From Prochlorococcus sp. AG-409-J03 (GTDB lineage Bacteria; Cyanobacteriota; Cyanobacteriia; PCC-6307; Cyanobiaceae): 47,147 nucleotides of DNA. The stretch covers positions 1 through 47,147 of the forward strand of contig QCJZ01000003.1 in the NCBI GenBank assembly GCA_003215695.1. The letters are read 5' to 3'. A model generated the notes under the pieces. It saw only the letters and a program-made list of their open reading frames with translations. It was not told the DNA's origin and made no database searches. Positions 561-10,449 of this stretch are shown piece by piece. Position numbers and translations under genes: made by a program. The first letter of the stretch is position 1. Each line of letters begins with the position of its first letter.

Positions 561-806
561 ATGAATTTAACTACCACTGCTGATTCTGTGATGATGTTTT
601 GCATCATCGCTTCAATGGCAATTTTTAGTGCCTTCTCAACTCTTCTTTCGATCCTAAAGAAAGGTATATTTGTTGATCAGAAATCGGTACTGATGCAAAA
701 GACCAATAGCGAATTGAGGGCAATGCTTGTTGGTATAGACAAAATTTCCAAACTCAATAAAAAACAATTAGTCGATTTAGTAATAGAAAAAAATGAACTT
801 TTTTGA
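561..806 (+). CDS. Small membrane protein with C-terminal SAP/Rho-N-like helix pair (81 aa)
   Basis: The ATG at 561 starts a short polar segment, then one hydrophobic helix at about residues 10-31. A charged C-terminal half (residues 45-79) follows, with the pattern KTNSELRAML...LNKKQLVDLV. That pattern resembles the SAP / Rho N-terminal helix-loop-helix seen in many small picocyanobacterial proteins of unknown role. I infer a single-pass membrane protein with its charged tail in the cytoplasm. There is no obvious Shine-Dalgarno site. It stands alone before a 600-bp repeat-rich spacer. Real gene likely, function unknown. Confidence 0.6.
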   Translation: MNLTTTADSVMMFCIIASMAIFSAFSTLLSILKKGIFVDQKSVLMQKTNSELRAMLVGIDKISKLNKKQLVDLVIEKNELF

Positions 807-1023: not shown

Positions 1024-1070
1024 TACTCTATAACTACATTTTAGTAGTTATATTCACTCCCACTCAATAG
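1024..1070 (-). repeat. guaA-3'-end-like repeat, copy 1 (putative att remnant, flank type I)
   Basis: Plus-strand ttcactcccactcaatag (1053-1070) read on the minus strand gives the codons I-E-W-E-stop (ATT GAG TGG GAG TGA), the same as the guaA end but with a synonymous Glu codon and a different stop. Next to it a perfect 7-bp inverted repeat, TAACTAC-atttta-GTAGTTA (1031-1050), has the spacing of a tyrosine-recombinase core site. The flank recurs at copy 3 (4852-4870). Confidence 0.6.
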
Positions 1071-1165
1071 CCAATCACAAAAGGGTGCTCTCAAACCCCA
1101 GTAATACCAACGGGTTTCATCTTTATTATAGCACGTAAAACTCACCTGAAACCCTGTCATACCAT

Positions 1166-1209
1166 TGGATTACAAGGAAAAATATACTCAATGATGCTTT
1201 TGTAGAGAA
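1166..1209 (+). repeat. 44-bp direct repeat, left copy, flanking the TPR/SGNH gene
   Basis: This 44-bp block recurs at 3242-3285 with a single mismatch (T/C). Both copies contain TACTCAATGATGCTTTTG and end in GTAGAGAA. Together they bracket the gene at 1407-2993. Confidence 0.8.
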
Positions 1210-1256
1210 ATGCTAGAGTATCCGATTGCTATGTCACCTGCTATGCGTCTCTCACC

Positions 1257-1406
1257 TTGTCACCTGCTCTCTACTTAGAGAAACAATCTACAGACCCGTT
1301 TTTGATTCTTGCTCTACCAGTTCCAAGATAATTTTAAAAAGAATTAATCAGGATTGAAATTAGTAGTAAAATTGGAAGAACCAAAAGAGAGAAAAAACAA
1401 GAGAAG
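1257..1406 (+). promoter_or_regulatory. Shared leader upstream of TPR gene 1
   Basis: It contains a TCTCTA/TAGAGA hairpin (1268-1281), a CAGACCCGTTTTTGATTC segment, then AAAGAATTAATCAGGATT and TTAGTAGTAAAAT just before the ATG at 1407. Equivalent blocks, in the same order or partly so, precede the other two TPR genes. It probably carries the promoter and ribosome site (AGAGAAG before the ATG). No -35/-10 pair can be assigned with confidence. Confidence 0.45.
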
Positions 1407-2993
1407 ATGGATAATTCTAGTCAAGATGGAGAAGGAAAGAAAAAAATCACTAAAATAAAAACATTCCCAGTGCCATTTGCGTTAGGAGCAATTCAAGAAA
1501 ATATCAATATTGCTACTAAGACTCCTTCCAAACCATCTAAAGAACAAATAATTAATAAAGCATTTCAATTTCATTCACAAGGAAACATTTCAGAAGCAGC
1601 CAAATATTATCAATTTCTAATCAATCAAGGCGTTGAAGATTCCAGAATTTATACTAATTATGGAGTCATATTAGGAGCATATGGCAAATTAAAAGAAGCT
1701 GAGTTGTATCAACGAAAAGCAATTAAACTTAATCCTAATTTCACTGAAGCTCATTCCAATCTTGGGAACATATTAATAGATCTTGGTAAATTAAAAGAAG
1801 CTGAGTTATATCAACGAAAAGCAATTAAACTTAATCCTAATCTCGCTGAAGCTCATTCTACTCTGGGAGACATATTAAAAAATCTTGGGAAACTAGAAGA
1901 AGCAGAACTATCCACTCGCAAAGCAATTAAACTTAATCCTAATTTCGCTGAAGCTTATTCTAATCTGGGAAGCATATTAAAGAATATTGGTAAATTAATA
2001 GAAGCAGAAGTGTTTACTCGAAAAGCAATTAAACTTAATCCTAATCTCGCTGAAGCTCATTCTAATCTGGGAAACATTTTACAAGATCTTGGCAAGTCAA
2101 ACGAGTTGCTTCTATTATCTAAATCAACACTTGAATCAAAATCTATAAATCAAGGATATAAATTATTAGCTTTATTAAGGATTATAATCACACATTTACT
2201 TAAAAAAGATTTTGAAAAAACCCTATTAAATATAAACAAAACCAACGATCTAATAAGTAAAGGTGCAGTCAATAACATTAAAAATGATCAGAATAAAAGG
2301 AATTTTTTGAATTTTTTTCTATTCATTACTTCACTATTTCCTCAACTTGAGAAGAAGGATAACAATCCTAATCTAAAAAAGGTACCTCATTTAGGAGAAA
2401 GTCATTGTCTTTCTTTTGCTCATCAAAATCTATCTATATGCTCACAAATCAAAAAGATTCAACCAGTTTTAATCGTAGGTGGGAAAGCATGGCATTTTGC
2501 TAATAACAAAAATAATCGATGGAAAGATTCTCTAGCTCAACAGATAAAACAACATAATTATAATGATGAAATATTGATTTCTTTTGGAGAGATAGATTGT
2601 AGAAAAGATGAAGGAATACTCAACTACGCAATTAAAAATAACAAAAATATTTCAGACGTGTGTGTAAAAACAGTGAAAGGTTATCTTGATTATATGGAGA
2701 GAATTCTATCTCAAGATTACTCAAAAAGATATTATTTTGGTGTTCCCGCACCATTAAGACAAAACGAATTGCTTGATGACTTAGATATAAAGAGAATTGA
2801 GACTATCAAAATATACAATTCCCTTTTAAAACAAGAAGTTTTATCTAGGAATTCTTATTTCGTAGATGTTTATGCTTTGACATCTAATGATGCTGGAGAA
2901 AATAATAATCTTCACATGTGTGACGACACTCACCTTTCCCCTGATTGTCTGTCTATTTTATTTGAAGATTATCTATGCAAAAGTGAAATTTGA
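1407..2993 (+). CDS. TPR protein with C-terminal SGNH/GDSL-like hydrolase domain (528 aa)
   Basis: Residues 1-45 form a conserved head (KIKTFPVPF..., KPSKEQI) shared with the genes at 5220 and 7128. Residues about 48-235 are tandem 34-residue tetratricopeptide repeats (GKLKEAELYQRKAIKLNPN type). After a helical linker, the C-terminal about 200 residues are different. GESHCLSF near residue 330 resembles the Ser block of SGNH esterases/GSCFA proteins, FGEIDCR near 393 the middle block, and DDTHLS near 506 the Asp-x-x-His catalytic block. I infer a hydrolase or acyl-esterase acting on a surface carbohydrate or protein held by the TPR. No signal peptide is present. It lies between 44-bp direct repeats. 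The TPR call is strong, the SGNH call is moderate and the substrate is unknown. Confidence 0.8.
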   Translation: MDNSSQDGEGKKKITKIKTFPVPFALGAIQENINIATKTPSKPSKEQIINKAFQFHSQGNISEAAKYYQFLINQGVEDSRIYTNYGVILGAYGKLKEAELYQRKAIKLNPNFTEAHSNLGNILIDLGKLKEAELYQRKAIKLNPNLAEAHSTLGDILKNLGKLEEAELSTRKAIKLNPNFAEAYSNLGSILKNIGKLIEAEVFTRKAIKLNPNLAEAHSNLGNILQDLGKSNELLLLSKSTLESKSINQGYKLLALLRIIITHLLKKDFEKTLLNINKTNDLISKGAVNNIKNDQNKRNFLNFFLFITSLFPQLEKKDNNPNLKKVPHLGESHCLSFAHQNLSICSQIKKIQPVLIVGGKAWHFANNKNNRWKDSLAQQIKQHNYNDEILISFGEIDCRKDEGILNYAIKNNKNISDVCVKTVKGYLDYMERILSQDYSKRYYFGVPAPLRQNELLDDLDIKRIETIKIYNSLLKQEVLSRNSYFVDVYALTSNDAGENNNLHMCDDTHLSPDCLSILFEDYLCKSEI

Positions 2994-3030
2994 TCAAAAT
3001 AAATTTCTCTATGAAAAATATTTCTAAAAA

Positions 3031-3129
3031 GATCAAAAGCAAGCAAACTTACAAAACTGGGCAAAATATGAAGAGAAGCATCCGAACACATTCAAAGCAA
3101 TGTATCAATTCTGGGTTTGTAAAGCGTAA
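3031..3129 (+). pseudogene. Relic of a small gene, C-terminal fragment copy 1
   Basis: After an in-frame TAA, an open frame reads ...NWAKYEEKHPNTFKAMYQF... and ends at TAA 3127-3129. It has no start codon before an internal ATG, so it is only the end of a gene. A second copy at 8460-8540 keeps the same peptide pattern with conservative changes and two internal stops, which indicates a coding origin. Both copies follow a TPR gene stop codon. The parent family was not recognised. Confidence 0.5.
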
Positions 3130-3165
3130 ACCTCACTAATTTAAGAGCATTAAAATATTTGATTG

Positions 3166-3189
3166 TGTAGAGAAAACTATCTATCTACA
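3166..3189 (+). repeat. Island hairpin repeat, copy B
   Basis: TGTAGAGAAAAC...ATCTACA is an inverted repeat followed by GAGACGGTAAAAATGTG and CCACGTGAAACCC. The downstream part matches copy C at 4574 (GAGACGGTAAAAGTGTGACA). Confidence 0.55.
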
Positions 3190-3241
3190 ACTTCGACATA
3201 GAGACGGTAAAAATGTGCCACGTGAAACCCTTTCTTGCCAA

Positions 3242-3285
3242 TGGATTACAAGGAAAAACATACTCAATGATGCTTTTGTAGAGAA
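3242..3285 (+). repeat. 44-bp direct repeat, right copy
   Basis: It matches 1166-1209 at 43 of 44 positions. The sequence diverges immediately after GTAGAGAA, so the boundary is sharp. The pair delimits a roughly 2.1-kb segment carrying the TPR/SGNH gene. Confidence 0.8.
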
Positions 3286-3360
3286 GTCGCTGTGACATAA
3301 AGCACATAAAGTTGGGGTATATAAGGATTTACAATCTAGATATCTAATACTGTCATAAGG

Positions 3361-4533
3361 TTGACTGGATTCGTGAATATTGCGACCAAAATAGTAACTG
3401 TAAACTCTAAAAGTTCATCTCACCCATATTTTGGTCAAGGATCATCAAAAGGATATTTTATTGATGGAAAAGAATCCCCTTCATTAACTCTAAGACAAAA
3501 TATTGTATATAGATTTGATCAATCAGACAGCAGTAACAGCAATCATCGAATCCTATTCTTTACTGACGCAAATAGAATAAATTCTTATCAAACAAATATT
3601 TCTGAAGTTGGTATCTCAGGTTCAACGGGTGCATATACAGATATCACTTTAACCAGTGAGACACCAGTAGAAATATTTTACCAATGTCAAAATCATCCCT
3701 TAATGGGTAACAATCTAAAATTCTCAACGTCAGGGAATGACACAGTAACAAGTAATTCAAATAATGAACTAATCGATGGTGGTGCAGGACTAGATACCGT
3801 TTCTTTTACTGGTAACTTCTCGAGTTATTCCTTTACACGTGGCACAGACACACTAGAAATCGCTGATCAAAGAACAACAGGAATAACCGATGGAACAGAT
3901 ACTTTAAAAAACATCGAATACATTCAATTTACTGATCAAACCGTAGAAGAATCCAAAGTAGACGTTGTTAAAACCTATAGCGGTGAGTTTAGTGATTACA
4001 AGTTCTACAACAAAGGCAATGGGATTTATCAAATCAAAACTGACTCCGATTATGACGATATAACAGGTCTTCCTTTATTAACTTTTACAGGAGAAGCAAC
4101 AACAAGTTCTTTTAGAGACATCAGTGCCATTGCTGACATCAAAGGAACATTTGATCAAGTCACTGGTTTAAATACTGATGATGCAAAAATGTTCCGTTTA
4201 TATAACGCTTCTTTCAAACGACTTCCTGATCCTAATGGATTGAAGTATTGGATCGGTAAATATAGTTCTGGAGAAAATGATTCACGAGCAGTAGCATCTT
4301 CTTTTCTTGTCTCAGATGAATTTAAAGAGCGTTATGGAGCAAATGTCTCTGACACCACTTACGTCAATAATCTCTATCAAAATGTACTAGGGAGATCACC
4401 TGATAGCAGTGGATTGAACTATTGGTTAGGTCAATTAAATAGCGGTGCAGAAACAAGATATGAAGTTCTTCTTGGATTTGCAGAGTCAGCAGAAAACAAA
4501 GCACTCTTTACAGAAATGACTGGATTTGGTTGA
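3361..4533 (+). CDS. Cupredoxin-like / RTX-like / DUF4214 multidomain protein (390 aa)
   Basis: Residues about 8-120 match the marine phage/bacterial cupredoxin-like module: GQGSSKGYFIDG, YRFDQSDSSNSNH, then YQCQNHPLMG, where Cys-x2-His-x2-Met with the earlier His gives a type I copper ligand set. Residues about 125-200 have an RTX-type calcium-binding look (NNELIDGGAGLDTVSF, DGTDTLKNIEYIQF). Residues about 265-385 contain two DUF4214 repeats (LYNASFKRLPDPNGLKYW and LYQNVLGRSPDSSGLNYW), common in secreted or surface proteins. There is no classical signal peptide, which fits type I secretion through a C-terminal signal. The start is uncertain: TTG at 3361 touches the AAGG, and GTG at 3373 has better spacing. 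No transporter genes are adjacent. I infer a cell-surface or exported protein. Confidence 0.75.
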   Translation: MTGFVNIATKIVTVNSKSSSHPYFGQGSSKGYFIDGKESPSLTLRQNIVYRFDQSDSSNSNHRILFFTDANRINSYQTNISEVGISGSTGAYTDITLTSETPVEIFYQCQNHPLMGNNLKFSTSGNDTVTSNSNNELIDGGAGLDTVSFTGNFSSYSFTRGTDTLEIADQRTTGITDGTDTLKNIEYIQFTDQTVEESKVDVVKTYSGEFSDYKFYNKGNGIYQIKTDSDYDDITGLPLLTFTGEATTSSFRDISAIADIKGTFDQVTGLNTDDAKMFRLYNASFKRLPDPNGLKYWIGKYSSGENDSRAVASSFLVSDEFKERYGANVSDTTYVNNLYQNVLGRSPDSSGLNYWLGQLNSGAETRYEVLLGFAESAENKALFTEMTGFG

Positions 4534-4573
4534 TCTGGAAAATTTAGATTGTTAGTAAAACAAAAATTAGGAC

Positions 4574-4648
4574 TGTAGAAAAAACCATCTTTCTACGTTT
4601 TCTCCATGGAGACGGTAAAAGTGTGACACGTGAAACCTACGTGAAACC
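4574..4648 (+). repeat. Island hairpin repeat, copy C with GTGAAAC doublet
   Basis: GTAGAAAAAAC...TTTCTAC (4574-4595) is followed by GAGACGGTAAAAGTGTGACA and then CACGTGAAACCTACGTGAAACC (4627-4648, given as two adjacent GTGAAAC words). Related doublets occur at 6915-6936 and 8803-8824. Confidence 0.55.
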
Positions 4649-4661
4649 ATATAAATCAAAT

Positions 4662-4707
4662 TATCACTGGAAAGTAGACATCTCTGCGACTCCTACTCAA
4701 TAGGTCC
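4662..4707 (-). repeat. guaA-3'-end-like repeat, copy 2 (flank type II)
   Basis: gactcctactcaatag (4688-4703) followed by GTCCT reads on the minus strand GGA CCT ATT GAG TAG. The true guaA end reads GGA ACT ATT GAG TGG. The upstream flank ATTATCACTGGAAAGTAGAC matches that of copy 4 (ATTATCAACAAGAAGTAGAC). Confidence 0.55.
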
Positions 4708-4804
4708 TACCATAGTTGGGGCGCCAAAACGCAGTCAGAGACTGAGTTTATTGCTTTAACAATAGCACCGTGACGTGCCTGTTTAAGATCCCTTGTCACT
4801 CTAT

Positions 4805-4845
4805 CACTTCACACTTAAAAGTTTCTACGGTGAAGTGTCTTTTTT
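4805..4845 (+). terminator. Intrinsic terminator inside the island
   Basis: A perfect 8-bp stem, CACTTCAC (4805-4812) with GTGAAGTG (4830-4837), has a 17-base loop and is followed by TCTTTTTT. It lies 270 bp after the cupredoxin-like gene and just before guaA-end repeat copy 3. It would isolate the next TPR gene from upstream transcription. Confidence 0.6.
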
Positions 4846-4848
4846 AGA

Positions 4849-4896
4849 GTATAACTACATTTTAGTAGTCAATGCTATTCCAACTCAGTAGTTCTT
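4849..4896 (-). repeat. guaA-3'-end-like repeat, copy 3 (flank type I)
   Basis: attccaactcagtagttctt (4877-4896) aligns with the guaA end attcccactcaatagttcct with three mismatches, and extends a few bases into guaA coding sequence. Its flank TATAACTACATTTTAGTAGT (4851-4870) is shared with copy 1 and contains the same inverted repeat (TAACTAC-atttta-GTAGT). Confidence 0.55.
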
Positions 4897-5081
4897 GCTC
4901 AAAATATTCCCTGTAATCCCAGTCCCTTACTCAACTAATTTTTTCCCAATTCTCGTGGGAAACTAGGAGAAACATGTAGGAGACATACTTGCCCTCTTAT
5001 ATTTCCGTTTTAGACATTCATATAGAGATTGCGTAAATCATATTACATCCTTTTTTCATTAGGTATTTTGTGTCCCCTTGT

Positions 5082-5219
5082 CCTAGTTCTCTAAGTGGAG
5101 AAATAATATATAGACCTGTTTTGTATTCTCCCTCTATAAGCTCAAAATTGTTTGATACAAAGTGATTTAGAATTAAAATTAGTAGTAAAATAATTCGAAT
5201 CAAAAGACAGAACGGAAAA
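5082..5219 (+). promoter_or_regulatory. Shared leader upstream of TPR gene 2
   Basis: TTCTC-taagtg-GAGAA (5087-5102), then TATAGACCTGTTTTGTATTC, CTCTATAAG, GAATTAAAATTAGTAGTAAA and CAAAAGACAG precede the ATG at 5220. The order and spacing parallel the leader at 1257-1406. CGGAA before the ATG may serve as the ribosome site. Confidence 0.45.
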
Positions 5220-6776
5220 ATGGAGGCGTCAGATAAACGAAAGCAAGAAAAAAAGAAAGTCAATAAAATAAAAATATTCCCGGTTCCATTTGCGATAGAA
5301 GAAATTGAAAAGAGTATTTCTTTTTCTAATAATGAAGAGCATAAGCCCTCTAAAGAACAAATACTTAACCAAGCATTTAAATTTCATTCACAGGGAAACA
5401 TTCAAGAAGCCGCGAAATATTATCAACTTTTAATCAATCAAGGATTTGAAGATCAAAGAGTTTTTTGTAATTTTGGTGTGATTTTAAAAAATCTTGGCAA
5501 ACTTCAAGAAGCAGAATTCTATAACCGCAAAGCAATTAAACTCAATCCTAATTTCGTTGAGGCTCACTCTAATTTAGGTAGCATATTGAAAGATCTTGGC
5601 AAATTAAAAGAAGCAGAAAGATCCTATCGAAAAGCTATTGAACTCAATCCTGATTTCACTATGGCGCATTTAAATCTTGGAAATATTTTTAAAGATCTTG
5701 GCAATTTAAAAGAAGCAGAAAGATCCTATCGAAAAGCTATTGAACTCAATCCTGATTTCGTTGAGGCTTACTCTAATTTAGGTAGCACATTAAAAGATCT
5801 TGGCAATTTAAAAGAAGCAGAAAGATCCTATCGAAAAGCTATTGAACTTAACCCTAATTTTGTGAAAGCCAAAATAAATTTAGACTTTATTACTAAGCAA
5901 CAAGTTCCTCTATGGCATATTCCTATGATGAACGACGATAAAAGAAATAACGCTTATTTAACAGCTATAAAGAGTGCCATTAAGAACAATGAATATGTAT
6001 TAGAAATTGGAACTGGATCAGGATTACTTTCGATGATGGCTATTGATGCGGGAGCAAAAAAAGTCATTACTTGTGAAGTCTCAGAACCTATTGCTGAAGC
6101 AGCAAAAAAAATAATCAAAAAAAATGGGTATTCAAATAGAATTGAAGTTATAAACAAAAAATCTACTGAGTTAAATATTAATGCAGATTTAGAAAAGAAA
6201 CCCGATCTAATTATTTCTGAAATTTTATCTTCTGAGTTTGTTGGAGAAGGAGTTCAAAGATCGTTATCAGATGCTAATCAAAGATTAATCAAAGAAAATG
6301 GACGAATGATACCTGAAGCTGGAGAAATTAAAGTTGCTTTACTTGAAAGCAGTCCAGAGATAGAAAAAGAGATGTTTGTTGAAAGAGTAAATGGATATGA
6401 TCTTTCAGAATTCAATAATATCATTGGGAAAAGATTGAATGTCCAATATCTTGGCAGAAAAACAACAACTTCTTTTTTAAGCGAAACCAAAGTTCCTTTT
6501 TCTTTTGACTTATATAGCAAAGAGATAATTAAAAGAAAAGAAATAATATTAGAAATAAAAGCTTGTAAAAGCGGAATATGTCTAGGTTTAATATCGTGGC
6601 TCAAACTTAAGCTTTATGAAAATATTGAGTTCGAAAATAACCCTAGTGAAAACTGTACATCAGGATGGGTAAACCCAATTTATAAGCTTAATCAGCCATT
6701 AAAAATTATAAAAGGTCAATTAATCAAAGTCAAAGCTACTCTTCTTGACGATAGTGTATGGTATGAATTTATATAG
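5220..6776 (+). CDS. TPR protein with C-terminal PRMT7/9-like methyltransferase domain (518 aa)
   Basis: The head (KIKIFPVPF, KPSKEQI; residues 1-50) and TPR array (about 52-225) match the neighbouring paralogs. From about residue 230 the chain becomes a protein arginine methyltransferase-like fold. WHIPMMNDDKRNNAY resembles the substrate-loop start of PRMT7/9. VLEIGTGSGLLSMMA near 260 is SAM motif I, CEVSEP follows as post-I acid, and SEILSSEFVGEG near 340 matches the PRMT double-E hairpin. SGICLGLISWLKLKL near 458 sits where the THW-loop region lies. Human PRMT9 also has TPRs before its PRMT domain. I infer an SAM-dependent methyltransferase, possibly for arginine or a protein-like substrate. 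It is soluble, with no signal peptide. Domain call strong, target unknown. Confidence 0.82.
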   Translation: MEASDKRKQEKKKVNKIKIFPVPFAIEEIEKSISFSNNEEHKPSKEQILNQAFKFHSQGNIQEAAKYYQLLINQGFEDQRVFCNFGVILKNLGKLQEAEFYNRKAIKLNPNFVEAHSNLGSILKDLGKLKEAERSYRKAIELNPDFTMAHLNLGNIFKDLGNLKEAERSYRKAIELNPDFVEAYSNLGSTLKDLGNLKEAERSYRKAIELNPNFVKAKINLDFITKQQVPLWHIPMMNDDKRNNAYLTAIKSAIKNNEYVLEIGTGSGLLSMMAIDAGAKKVITCEVSEPIAEAAKKIIKKNGYSNRIEVINKKSTELNINADLEKKPDLIISEILSSEFVGEGVQRSLSDANQRLIKENGRMIPEAGEIKVALLESSPEIEKEMFVERVNGYDLSEFNNIIGKRLNVQYLGRKTTTSFLSETKVPFSFDLYSKEIIKRKEIILEIKACKSGICLGLISWLKLKLYENIEFENNPSENCTSGWVNPIYKLNQPLKIIKGQLIKVKATLLDDSVWYEFI

Positions 6777-6792
6777 TTGCAAAAACCAGAAT

Positions 6793-6839
6793 AACATTAT
6801 CAACAAGAAGTAGACGTATACTTCACTCCCACTCAATAG
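6793..6839 (-). repeat. guaA-3'-end-like repeat, copy 4 (flank type II)
   Basis: ttcactcccactcaatag (6822-6839) is identical to copy 1 over 18 bases and shares 13 contiguous bases with the true guaA end. On the minus strand it reads ATT GAG TGG GAG TGA. The flank has an inverted repeat GAAGTA-gacgta-TACTTC (6807-6824), and ATTATCA...GTAGAC is shared with copy 2. Confidence 0.6.
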
Positions 6840-7039
6840 AACCTCTAAAAATACCAAGTTCAGGATCCCTTATTACAACTGAATAAAGCATAGCATTTAA
6901 TAATAAGTAACTTCCAAGTGAAACTTTTGTGAAACTAATAAGAGACGATAATAAACTAAAAACTCCTCACAGACGACTTTAACTTAGAGATATAGTAGGG
7001 AATTATTCTAAGAACATACTACTTTATGGCACTCAAAAT

Positions 7040-7127
7040 GAAACAACAATAATTTGAGAAAGAATTAATAAGGATTCAAATGAGTAGTAAAATAGGAATC
7101 ACCAAAAGAGAGAAAAGATAAGAGAAA
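7040..7127 (+). promoter_or_regulatory. Shared leader upstream of TPR gene 3
   Basis: GAAAGAATTAATAAGGATTC, GAGTAGTAAAATAGGAATC and ACCAAAAGAGAGAAAAGATA precede the ATG at 7128. This part is nearly the same as the last 75 bases of the leader at 1407 (AAAGAATTAATCAGGATTG, TTAGTAGTAAAATTGGAAG, ACCAAAAGAGAG). The conserved GAGAA before the ATG is a weak ribosome site. Confidence 0.5.
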
Positions 7128-8438
7128 ATGCATAGTTCTAGTCAAGAAGGAGAAGAAAACAAGAAAATTACTGAGGTAAAAACATTCCCAGTTCCATTTC
7201 CTTCAAGAGAAAATCAAGAAAACCTCACTGTTACTACTAACACTCCTTCTAAACCTTCTAAAGAACAAATAATTAAGCAAGCAGTTCAGTATCATCTAAA
7301 AGGAAACATTACAAAAGCAGTAAATTATTATCAAGATTTCATCAATCAAGGGTTCAAAGACCACAGGGTTTTTTCTAATTATGGAGGGATTTTAAAAGGT
7401 CTTGGCAAGTTACAAGAAGCAGAAAAGTTCTATCGCAAAGCAATTGAACTTAATCCTAATTACGCTTTAGCACATTCTAATCTAGGAAATCTATTGAGTG
7501 ATCTTGGCAAGTTACAAGAAGCAGAATTATCCATACGCAAAGCAATTGAAATCAAACCTGATTATCCAGAGGTGCATTACAATCTGGGCAATATATTGAG
7601 TGATCTTGGCAAGTTACAAGAAGCAGAAAAGTTCTATCGCAAAGCAATTGAACTTAATCATAATTTCACAAGTGCTTATTATAATTTATCTGGATTAGCA
7701 AATACTATTGAGGAAGCAGAAGCAAGGATTAATCAATGCTTAAAAATAGATGAGAATCATTTAAAAGCAAAACTCAATCTCAGTGCTCTAAAATTACATC
7801 AAGGTGATCAATCCTCATTTGAAAAGTTAATTAAATCTCCTCACAAAGATCATCCTTATATGCGCTCCTTTAAATGGGTTTCTACTTTACCAAAATTACC
7901 TGAATTATTTTTCCATAGATGGGCATTATTTGACAGTATGATTAATAAAAGTAAAAAAGATAGACCTTTCTATGAATTTGGTGTTTGGCGAGGTGAATCC
8001 TTTAAGTATCTAATTAATACTTTCAAAAAAGGTTATGGATTTGATACTTTTGAAGGATTACCAGAAGATTGGCATCAAACAAAACAAGGCAGTTATTCAG
8101 CAGAAAGAATCATTCCTAATATTGATGGCGGAACATTTATAGCAGGTAAATTTGAAGACACACTTCCAACTTTCTTTGCCGAATCAAGACCTATGGCATC
8201 AATTATAAATTTTGATGCTGACCTTTATTCTTCTACTCTCTGTGCTTTAAATTATTCAAAACCTGTTATAAATAAGGATACAATTTTAATATTTGATGAG
8301 TTTATTATCAATGAAAATTGGGAGCAGGATGAATATAAAGCACTCAATGAATTTTGCTCTAATAATAATTTAACTTATGAAGTTTTGGCGATCTCCTATA
8401 TGACAAAGCAAGTTGCAGTGAAATTAATAGGAGTTTAA
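7128..8438 (+). CDS. TPR protein with C-terminal TylF-like methyltransferase domain (436 aa)
   Basis: The head (EVKTFPVPF, KPSKEQI) and TPRs (about residues 48-225) match the genes at 1407 and 5220. The last 190 residues match the TylF/macrocin O-methyltransferase-like class I SAM fold. FYEFGVWRGESFKYL near 283 is the SAM-binding motif I, GFDTFEGLPEDW follows as the acidic post-I/cap segment, and NFDADLYSST near 365 resembles the metal-binding DxDxY region. ILIFDEFI near 387 is the next acid site. I infer an O-methyltransferase acting on a sugar or glycan-like substrate. Such TPR-TylF fusions are common in low-light Prochlorococcus, as far as I recall. The natural substrate cannot be read from the sequence. 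Confidence 0.82.
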   Translation: MHSSSQEGEENKKITEVKTFPVPFPSRENQENLTVTTNTPSKPSKEQIIKQAVQYHLKGNITKAVNYYQDFINQGFKDHRVFSNYGGILKGLGKLQEAEKFYRKAIELNPNYALAHSNLGNLLSDLGKLQEAELSIRKAIEIKPDYPEVHYNLGNILSDLGKLQEAEKFYRKAIELNHNFTSAYYNLSGLANTIEEAEARINQCLKIDENHLKAKLNLSALKLHQGDQSSFEKLIKSPHKDHPYMRSFKWVSTLPKLPELFFHRWALFDSMINKSKKDRPFYEFGVWRGESFKYLINTFKKGYGFDTFEGLPEDWHQTKQGSYSAERIIPNIDGGTFIAGKFEDTLPTFFAESRPMASIINFDADLYSSTLCALNYSKPVINKDTILIFDEFIINENWEQDEYKALNEFCSNNNLTYEVLAISYMTKQVAVKLIGV

Positions 8439-8459
8439 CTAAAAAGAAAGATACAAACG

Positions 8460-8540
8460 AACTTATAAAACTGGGCAAGATTTGCAGAAAGGCATCCAAA
8501 TACTTTCAGAAGTATCTATCAATTCTAGGTTTCTAAAATT
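8460..8540 (+). pseudogene. Relic of a small gene, C-terminal fragment copy 2
   Basis: In frame it reads NL-stop-NWARFAERHPNTFRSIYQF-stop-VSKI. This parallels the fragment at 3031-3129 (NWAKYEEKHPNTFKAMYQF), with K/R, Y/F and A/S type changes typical of decayed coding DNA. It starts 21 bp after the TPR/TylF stop codon, like copy 1 after the TPR/SGNH gene. Confidence 0.55.
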
Positions 8541-8621
8541 TCTATCTGAATACTCAAAAGCATCTAAGTTTCATAGTTTGTTTAGAAACTAGATAAGTAA
8601 TTTAGTTGCAGAGTATACCTA

Positions 8622-8741
8622 TCATTTGTAGATGTATGAAGGTTGTTCAGCATAAGGATCAACACGCAAACGCCCTTCTAACTGTTCATACAACGCATAT
8701 GAATTATCATTTTGTCCCCCTGTTACTACCCATAGTTCAGG
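8622..8741 (-). pseudogene. Minus-strand coding relic or micro-gene (about 39-41 aa)
   Basis: Read on the minus strand, the frame gives PELWVVTGGQNDNSYALYEQ then LEGRLRVDPYAEQPSYIYK and TGA at 8622-8624. The composition looks like real protein. There is no ATG: a TTG at about 8747 is the only start candidate, and an in-frame stop lies just beyond it in the hairpin repeat. Most likely it is the 3' end of a gene truncated at the repeat. The family was not recognised. Confidence 0.4.
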
Positions 8742-8750
8742 AAACAAAGT

Positions 8751-8824
8751 GTAGAGAAATCAATTCTTCTACGACTTTTCTACAGAGAAGGTGACAAGGT
8801 GACAAGTGAAACTTTGGTGAAACT
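8751..8824 (+). repeat. Island hairpin repeat, copy D with GTGACA/GTGAAAC elements
   Basis: GTAGAGAAAtcaattcTTCTAC (8751-8771, an inverted repeat) is followed by GAGAAGGTGACAAGGTGACA and then CAAGTGAAACTTTGGTGAAA (8803-8822). The first part matches copy A (882) and the second matches 6915-6936. This copy lies 40 bp before the guaA stop, at the junction of island and core. Confidence 0.55.
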
Positions 8825-8862
8825 CAAGTATTGAGTCTATGACTGGGGTTCTCATCCCACCC

Positions 8863-8882
8863 TTATTCCCACTCAATAGTTC
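8863..8882 (-). repeat. guaA 3' end, reference copy of the island repeat (putative attachment site)
   Basis: On the minus strand the codons ACT ATT GAG TGG GAA TAA end guaA. Partial matches at 1053, 4688, 4877 and 6822 are all in the same orientation. Confidence 0.6.
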
Positions 8883-10449
8883 CTGGAGGTTTACTTGTTA
8901 TATCCAAAACAACTCTATTAACACCTGCAACTTCATTGACTATTCTATTAGAAATTTTTTCTAGAACTTCATACGGTAAGCGAGACCAATCAGCGGTCAT
9001 TCCATCTTCACTCGAAACACAACGAACAACAATTGGCCAGGCATAGGTTCTTTGATCTCCCATTACTCCAACTGAATAAACAGGCAACAAGACAGCGAAA
9101 GCTTGCCAAATTTCATTATACAAACCAGCATTATTGACTTCCTCTCGCACAATTAAATCTGCATCCCTTAAACAATTTAATTTTTCATGAGTAACCTCTC
9201 CTAAAATTCGTATTGCCAATCCTGGACCTGGAAATGGATGTCTTCGAACAATTTCATCAGGTAAACCCAATGATTTTCCAACTTTTCTAACTTCATCTTT
9301 AAATAAACGTCTCAATGGTTCGACCAATTTAAATTGTAAATCTTTTGGTAAGCCTCCTACATTGTGATGACTTTTGATTTTAACCGCTATTCGCTCACCA
9401 GTTTTAGGATCAACATTAGTTCCAGAACTTTCTATTACATCTGGATAAAGCGTACCTTGAGCTAAATAATCAAAAGGGCCCAATCTAAGACTCTCCTCTT
9501 CAAAAACCCTAATAAATTCTCTACCTATTATTTTACGCTTTTGCTCAGGATCAGTAACTCCTTTTAATTGAGAAATAAATCTTTCTCTAGCATTGATGTA
9601 TTCAACTTTAATATTAAATTTTTCATGGAAAAAAGACATTAAAAATTCCGGCTCCCCTTTTCTCATAAACCCTTGATCAATAAACATGCACGTCAACTGA
9701 GAGCCTATGGCTTTATTTAATAAAAATGCAAGAGTTGATGAATCAACACCACCAGATAAAGCCAATAAAACTTTTTTATCGCCTACTTGTTCTTTAACTT
9801 GAGCAACAGCTTCATCGATGAATAAATTTGTTGTCCAATCTTGCTCACATGAACAAATATGACATACAAAATTTCTTATTAAAACCATTCCATAAGTGGA
9901 ATGAACAACTTCGGGATGAAATTGCACTCCATAAAAGCTCTTTTCATGCAAAGCAATAGCCGCTTCTGAAGTATTTGAAGTATGAGCTAATCGGACAAAT
10001 CCTTTAGGTAATTCCTGAACGGAATCGCCGTGGCTCATCCACATTGTTGATCCACTAATAACATTGGTTAATAAAGCTGTTGAATCATCAACTTCTAAAG
10101 GAGCCTTTCCGTATTCTGCTTTCCCAATAGCAGGTTTGACTGATCCTCCTAATTGATGAACCATTAATTGCATGCCATAGCAAACACCAAGTACAGGAAC
10201 ACCTAATTTAAAAATGTCAGGATCACAATAAGGAGCACCTTCTTCATAAACAGATCCAGGTCCTCCACTTAGAATGATTCCTTTAGGATTAAGAGAGCGT
10301 AATTGAGCTACAGATGTTGTATAGCTCATGACTAATGAGTAAACCTCTGTCTCTCTAATTCTTCGAGCAATTAATTCTGAGTATTGAGAACCAAAATCGA
10401 GAATTACGATTGCTGGGTTTCGTTTTTCTTCTGAAATCATTGAAGCCAT
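8863..10449 (-). CDS. guaA: GMP synthase, glutamine-hydrolysing (528 aa)
   Basis: Converts XMP to GMP using glutamine and ATP, the last step of guanine nucleotide synthesis. The N-terminal class I amidotransferase domain has GVCYGMQ with nucleophile Cys90 and QFHPE with His178/Glu180. The ATP-pyrophosphatase domain has the PP-loop SGGVDSS at 232-238. The C-terminal dimerisation domain ends in PPGTIEWE, the usual GuaA end. Full family length. Its last codons are the sequence repeated four times in the neighbouring island, which fits the known use of the guaA 3' end as an integration site in other bacteria. The gene itself is intact. Confidence 0.98.

Follow-up and report, generated by a model that had tools for sequence, protein, structure and literature searches.

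The DNA downstream of guaA, the gene for GMP synthase, in Prochlorococcus sp. AG-409-J03 is, with high probability, an accretion array, or additive flexible island, assembled by a tyrosine integrase associated with guaA. The window analysed here is a stretch of 47,147 nt, the entire contig QCJZ01000003.1 of a 910-kb genome assembly (GCA_003215695.1) that is 54.8% complete; as the window spans the whole contig, sequence to the left of position 1 could not be read. A sequence-only reading of this DNA had proposed successive site-specific insertions at the 3' end of guaA. This is supported by flanking sequences (arms) that pair only within units, a 132:2 strand bias among copies of the guaA end, their decay with distance from guaA, and a family of integrases associated with guaA.

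We propose that integrase-bearing elements would recombine at GAGTGGG, within the last codons of guaA, with exchange probably taking place inside this 7-nt spacer. Each insertion would bring guaA's last bases, a stop codon and a new downstream arm, so that GuaA stays intact, and would displace earlier elements away from guaA, with a core copy now in front of them. In this genus, the units observed are mostly non-autonomous, having lost the integrase and kept both ends with their matched arm repeats, which may serve as arm sites for the integrase. They commonly hold one large cargo gene, most often encoding a protein fused to tetratricopeptide repeats (TPR).

Copies of the guaA end in the window

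The target gene, its core and the core copies lie as follows:

8863-10449, minus strand: guaA (GMP synthase), the probable host target gene, its last codons forming the attachment core
8865-8879, minus strand: core at guaA, CTATTGAGTGGGAAT, with the 7-nt spacer GAGTGGG between short inverted repeats; same GAGTGGGA as the proposed GIsul2 core
6825-6839, minus strand: core copy CTATTGAGTGGGAGT, 0 mismatches
4877-4891, minus strand: core copy, 2 mismatches
4689-4703, minus strand: core copy, 1 mismatch (Trp codon to stop)
1056-1070, minus strand: core copy, 0 mismatches

The sequence-only reading had located the guaA end at these five places, all in the orientation of guaA, and both positions and orientation were confirmed. 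Its further claim that the copy at 4877-4896 continues into guaA coding sequence was not, as a recurrent arm unlike guaA (upstream cluster 6) lies beyond the core there. The 12-mer CCCACTCAATAG occurs exactly three times in the 910-kb genome, always inside this island; the opposite strand has none, and neither did a reversed-pattern control yield any. With up to two mismatches allowed, TCCCACTCAATAG is found five times in the window, on a single strand, against a mean of 1.0 in shuffled sequence, where five were reached in 1/100 shuffles. Among the 3' ends of 39 open reading frames (ORFs) in the window (15 nt compared, at most two mismatches), only guaA, with four, and one A/T-rich end, with six, had more than one extra copy.

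The commonest form of the core, ACTATT-GAGTGGG-AATAGT, has a 7-nt spacer flanked by short inverted repeats, an arrangement typical of tyrosine-recombinase cores.

A genus-wide array

Our survey covered 43 sequences (511,525 bases): the window, the DNA downstream of guaA in 31 more genomes of the same genus, and 11 other contigs, which were picked for their matches in an earlier motif scan. Copies were counted at up to two mismatches over CTATTGAGTGGGA[AG]T, excluding guaA's own ends and four guaA loci (G060-G063) with 1.5 kb downstream each. This gave 132 core copies on the guaA strand and two on the opposite strand, with at least one further copy at 26 of the 32 guaA loci. The guaA-end repeat in the window thus belongs to a genus-wide pattern, in which the end of the target gene recurs as a direct repeat between units, as in accretion arrays, and the island varies in content and length between strains at one insertion site, as in additive islands.

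In the six complete, single-contig genomes, the far border of the array is a conserved gene of 242-260 aa, located 5.5-47.8 kb beyond guaA. No core copies were found past this gene in 138 kb of these genomes. The sequence-only reading had named wide recurrence of the motif away from guaA as an outcome that would count against it. We did not find this in the six complete genomes, scanned at up to one mismatch with a slightly different pattern: 27 of 28 matches lay in the guaA array on the guaA strand (guaA ends included), compared with four for a reversed control.

The last bases and stop codon of guaA itself also vary, and this variation is not random drift but is coupled to the type of the neighbouring downstream arm. 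Across the 32 loci this arm was of type A in 14, B in 10, C in four, D in three and E in one. The coupling is strict for the first two types, with AATAG at 14/14 type-A loci and AGTA(A/G) at 10/10 type-B loci, and loose for types C to E, which are mixed. Since the gene's last bases and stop follow the arm, insertion appears to rewrite both while leaving the protein unchanged.

Among named sequences, those nearest to the guaA of the window come from Prochlorococcus single cells. Outside this group, distant Prochlorococcus (L182-L196, 74-77% GuaA identity) have copies of their own guaA end downstream in 9/15 loci, in some cases with tandem arm repeats; the habit may thus be older than this genus. 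In one Synechococcus single cell (L152:12125), the guaA end recurs once, 1.6 kb downstream, so there, too, the site may be in use.

Arms pair within units

Downstream arms fell into five main types covering 146/164 sites, and upstream arms into six types which, together with guaA itself, covered 159/164; the distance threshold was our choice, and small clusters were removed before pairing was counted. The 121 core-to-core units have a median size of 2.5 kb, and 14 of them are gene-free ('empty') units of 128-212 nt. Within units, the guaA-side arm predicts the arm at the far end, with a mutual information of 0.681 (shuffles: mean 0.152, maximum 0.379, p <= 0.0002) for the 107/121 units whose arms both belong to main clusters. 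The two arms around one core are independent (mutual information 0.176, p = 0.23, 110/164 sites, guaA's own ends excluded), and since these pairs are drawn from the same related sequences, they serve as a control for the pairing within units. Inner tandem repeats (e.g. GTTCCCCGTATGTTCCCCGT) also agree at both unit ends beyond what the upstream-arm type explains (p = 1.6e-5, tested on those of the 107 units that exceed 600 nt, n = 104).

Mismatches in the core increase with rank from guaA (rho 0.52, n = 96), as expected if new units enter at guaA. Whole units also recur between genomes, with ten collinear matches in all (80% identity over 75% of both units). Two genomes, G018 and G027, share a 3.2-kb unit at 96-97% identity, between different neighbours, although their guaA DNA is only 82.1% identical.

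Could the arms instead be repeated regulatory or terminator sequences, resembling guaA by chance or through selection on terminators? Some arms look hairpin-like (CTACTAAAAAGTAG, judged by eye on unfolded sequence) and inner motifs recur. However, the core is coding sequence, is locked to one strand and was not found past the right border of the island, while cores and arms delimit whole units. In addition, Rfam gave no family at the gathering score on the arms of the window, L128, L041 and L059. We regard this explanation as barely credible.

Units in the window

The core copies divide the island into the following units and parts of units:

8803-8864, minus strand: downstream arm of type E, a tandem repeat of about 10 nt (GTTTCACCAAAGTTTCACTTG)
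6840-8864: unit 1, arms E...f, with a TPR-TylF ORF as cargo (7128-8438, plus strand); probable non-autonomous derivative of an L128-type element
8622-8720, minus strand: relic of the N-terminus of a guaA integrase, 81% identical to residues 5-36 and interrupted by a stop and a frameshift
6819-6936, minus strand: distal end of unit 1 (upstream arm of type f) and core, sharing 86% identity with the L128 element's distal end
4892-6824: unit 2, arms B...e, with a TPR-methyltransferase ORF as cargo (5220-6776, plus strand)
4704-4876: unit 3, 'empty', with arms only (C...a), 188 nt from core to core
1071-4688: unit 4, arms B...b, with a TPR ORF (1407-2993, plus strand) and a DUF4214 ORF (3361-4533, plus strand)
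1-1055: unit 5, truncated by the contig start, arm C, with an ORF at 561-806 (plus strand)

The 'short block' of the sequence-only reading corresponds to the empty unit 3. Its SGNH and cupredoxin labels for the genes of unit 4 found no Pfam match at E <= 0.001; one ORF gave TPR and the other DUF4214. In unit 2, the methyltransferase domain matches PrmA above the cut-off and PRMT5_C just below it.

A 64-nt motif (TGTAGAGAAA...GAGAAGGTGAC) recurs in the window at 881-944, 3166-3229, 4574-4637 and 8750-8813, in some cases just inside the arm repeats.

The guaA integrase and its element

A profile search of 80 loci, some containing little DNA beyond guaA, found integrase ORFs directly after guaA in three, starting 191-222 nt past the stop: L128 (AG-409-O23), L140 (Synechococcus AG-679-A04) and L192 (AG-321-E21). 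Each of the three scores above the PF00589 cut-off, L192 by a narrow margin, and has matches among the PHROG integrases. Searched against 299 genomes of the order, a profile built from them had matches at E <= 1e-20 in 20. Ranked by strength, the first ten are without exception found after the guaA stop and on the guaA strand, at distances of 200-353 nt in nine cases and of about 1.0 kb in L202; L206 is a fragment, and both L198 and L206 contain a stop. None of the ten weaker matches has guaA in its 1.5-kb flanks, and one of them (G009) is a relic adjoining an array core. By eye, several of these integrases are separated from guaA by tandem repeats of like design.

That the window holds no recombinase gene, as the sequence-only reading had it, is correct for an intact gene but overlooks the frameshifted integrase relic on the minus strand of unit 1. 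Relatives carry the guaA integrase in open frames, and the window has the relic only. In the assembled part of this genome (54.8% complete), no intact partner of the guaA type was seen.

In L128, an 8.8-kb element (L128:11571-20524) spans the interval between the guaA core and the next one and encodes a tyrosine integrase, an HUH-type replication protein (PF23343), a large protein and a serine resolvase. We take the large protein to be a putative helicase; it matches DUF5906 only below the cut-off, and PHROG 28855, a family without assigned function. In phages, the L128 integrase has one distant record, and in plasmids likewise one.

Unit 1 matches this element at both ends, with 91% identity over 203 nt at 8622-8824 and 86% over 118 nt at 6819-6936. 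It is therefore best read as a derivative that kept its ends, with a TPR-TylF gene replacing the replication genes. The truncated unit 5 also has traces of such an element: its ORF at 561-806 shares 54% identity over 71 residues with one of 77 aa in the L128 element, and the DNA at 689-788 is 71% identical to that element.

An alternative is a true integron-like system. Free circular cassettes would then be taken up by an integrase acting in trans, and the array would be a gene reservoir, not a pile of decayed elements. The small units, many with a single large gene, would fit this, as would the empty units, the best-kept cores next to guaA, and the direction of the genes (100 of 115 ORFs of at least 250 aa point toward guaA). 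The L128 enzyme, however, falls well short of the integron-integrase model TIGR02249, scoring 19.2 bits for a cut-off of 265, and the L140 enzyme has no match to it at E <= 0.001. In the 41 genomes of the genus searched, moreover, the guaA-type integrase was found as relics only, and unit 1 reads best as a degraded element. We consider an integron-like system unlikely.

Several other recombinases were considered and set aside. Resident PF00589 recombinases were matched in 37/41 genomes, and the most widely shared one is a conserved chromosomal gene, with relatives of 46-49% identity in 13/23 genomes of other genera of the same class. This 385-aa tyrosine recombinase (L097:1759-2916 and orthologues) is a conserved chromosomal gene of this genus. 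Serine recombinases were present in 5/9 genomes searched, with none in the array stretches read. The two tyrosine-recombinase genes of G022 are 24.6 and 29.4 kb past guaA, with conserved chromosomal genes in between, and that of G033 is 55 kb away. A phage source was also rejected, as two arm patterns matched 0 viral contigs.

Several observations weigh against insertion by a guaA-associated integrase. The pairing of arms is loose: each of the six upstream types is found at least once with B, with C and with D, and C has no clear favourite. The guaA-side arms of the unit shared by G018 and G027 differ while most of the remainder is nearly identical, which suggests that arms are exchangeable. 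The pairing, repeat and decay tests treat related units as independent, without correction for phylogeny, and the decay test is restricted to copies with at most two mismatches. Six of the 32 guaA loci have no further copy; five of these end less than 1.8 kb from guaA, but the sixth (G022) has none in 36.9 kb. Among 41 genomes of the genus (17/41 at least 90% complete), we found no full-length guaA-type integrase but only relics, the longest of 184 residues. Nor did we find a circular attP form, and the lack of viral matches to the two arm patterns counts here as well. Given the missing integrase, circular form and viral matches, together with the loose pairing, current mobility within the genus is something we infer.

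Cargo

We scanned 83 cassette proteins, comprising 80 of the 94 located minus-strand ORFs of relatives and three ORFs of the window. At E <= 1e-5, TPR models match 68/83 of these, Sulfotransfer_3 20/83 and Methyltransf_25 14/83. When the 83 proteins are aligned, a shared N-terminal stretch around KTFPVPF precedes the TPR repeats, and the later parts vary; this shared N-terminus may aid domain swapping. Among the cargo of two other units (L050:1817-8354 and L042:5475-8018) are a type I methyltransferase, paired with a helicase, and an AAA/nuclease gene similar to a PADLOC family. This suggests that the array also stores anti-phage systems. More broadly, the cargo may act in cell-surface change and defence. 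The small RNA Cyano-1 (RF01701) also lies inside array units, apparently as cargo (L041:8273-8337 and L059:12609-12673).

The prevalence of TPR proteins, and the likeness of the 5' parts of their genes between units, might indicate that tandem duplication and homologous recombination among similar TPR genes built the array, with the cores as passengers of one founding insertion. The apparent swapping of guaA-side arms while the cargo stays would also be in line with this. However, the same cores frame non-TPR cargo (the methyltransferase-helicase pair, the AAA/nuclease gene and small genes), and a single integrase family adjoins guaA in relatives. Duplication should presumably also correlate arms across a core as it does within a unit, which is not seen, and the two mutual-information tests weaken it accordingly. 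We judge this origin very unlikely, and prefer repeated insertion at guaA.

Comparison with known systems

Units 1-4 are flanked by attachment (att) sites and have no working integrase. Such units are known as cis-mobilizable elements (CIMEs), derived by deletion from autonomous elements in the accretion of integrative and conjugative or integrative and mobilizable elements (ICEs and IMEs). The guaA array is like CIMEs in this respect and differs in its scale, its arm diversity and the conjugative partner, which was not seen. Integrons, too, line up small units next to a fixed site, most of them facing the same way, and the guaA array shares these features. It differs from them in having a core copied from a host gene, arm repeats and no integron-type integrase that we could find, a distinction judged on the integrase, attC sites lying outside the search.

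Additive islands with repeated gene ends, guaA as an insertion target and Prochlorococcus tycheposons at tRNA genes are all known. Tycheposons were reportedly described by Hackl et al. in 2023. As summarised in a later account, they are integrative elements of Prochlorococcus with a tyrosine recombinase, cargo and a border tRNA gene, one of seven (PMC10872708). The array described here also lies in Prochlorococcus and carries cargo; a tyrosine recombinase is present in related elements, with only a relic in the window. It sits at guaA, and the window contains no tRNA gene to form a border.

An additive island in 'Ca. Methylopumilus' has repeats of the last 20 nt of tRNA-Lys (PMC10872708), and in Alteromonas a tRNA is the gene-cassette target (PMC4119200). 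Repeated insertion at a single site is common to those islands and to ours. Here, however, the target is a protein gene, the units are small, and the arms and integrase family are resolved.

A close parallel is GIsul2 in Shigella, which has guaA as its target, GAGTGGGA as the proposed recombination core and an integrase shown to be active in recA- E. coli (PMC9376610). GIsul2 and the guaA-integrating islands of other bacteria resemble our array in the guaA 3' end as target, the proposed GAGTGGGA core, the presence of an integrase and an internal third att site (PMC9376610). Unlike GIsul2, the Prochlorococcus site stacks many small integrase-free units across a genus, with cargo that is mostly TPR-fused and includes some defence-like genes. 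In the openly available papers that we searched, we found no earlier description of a protein-gene site with small, integrase-free units, matched arms and a guaA integrase family that has left a relic in the window. Judged by titles and the beginnings of abstracts, none of the papers found on guaA and Prochlorococcus concerned this island.

Implications

Small mobile gene units appear to have accumulated in succession behind an essential gene, whose last letters are copied with every arrival. The site appears to act as a strain-specific gene store, in which many genes are likely to modify the cell surface or serve in defence. We also offer, tentatively, the idea that the guaA end is a standing cassette-exchange locus. 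Integrases of passing satellite elements would act in trans on integrase-free units, mobilising them, and arm repeats would have diversified like types of lock. Populations could thereby reassort TPR-fused surface enzymes and defence genes drawn from a common pool, with the essential gene unharmed.

These results provide a precise and testable mechanism, with a site, a core, arms and a recombinase family, for a hypervariable island in one of the ocean's very abundant phototrophs. Because arm types are built-in boundary marks, single cells and metagenomes could reveal the gain and loss of units. The cargo, with its TPR proteins bearing sulfotransferase or methyltransferase domains and some restriction-like genes, suggests that the island may take part in the conflict between phages and their hosts.

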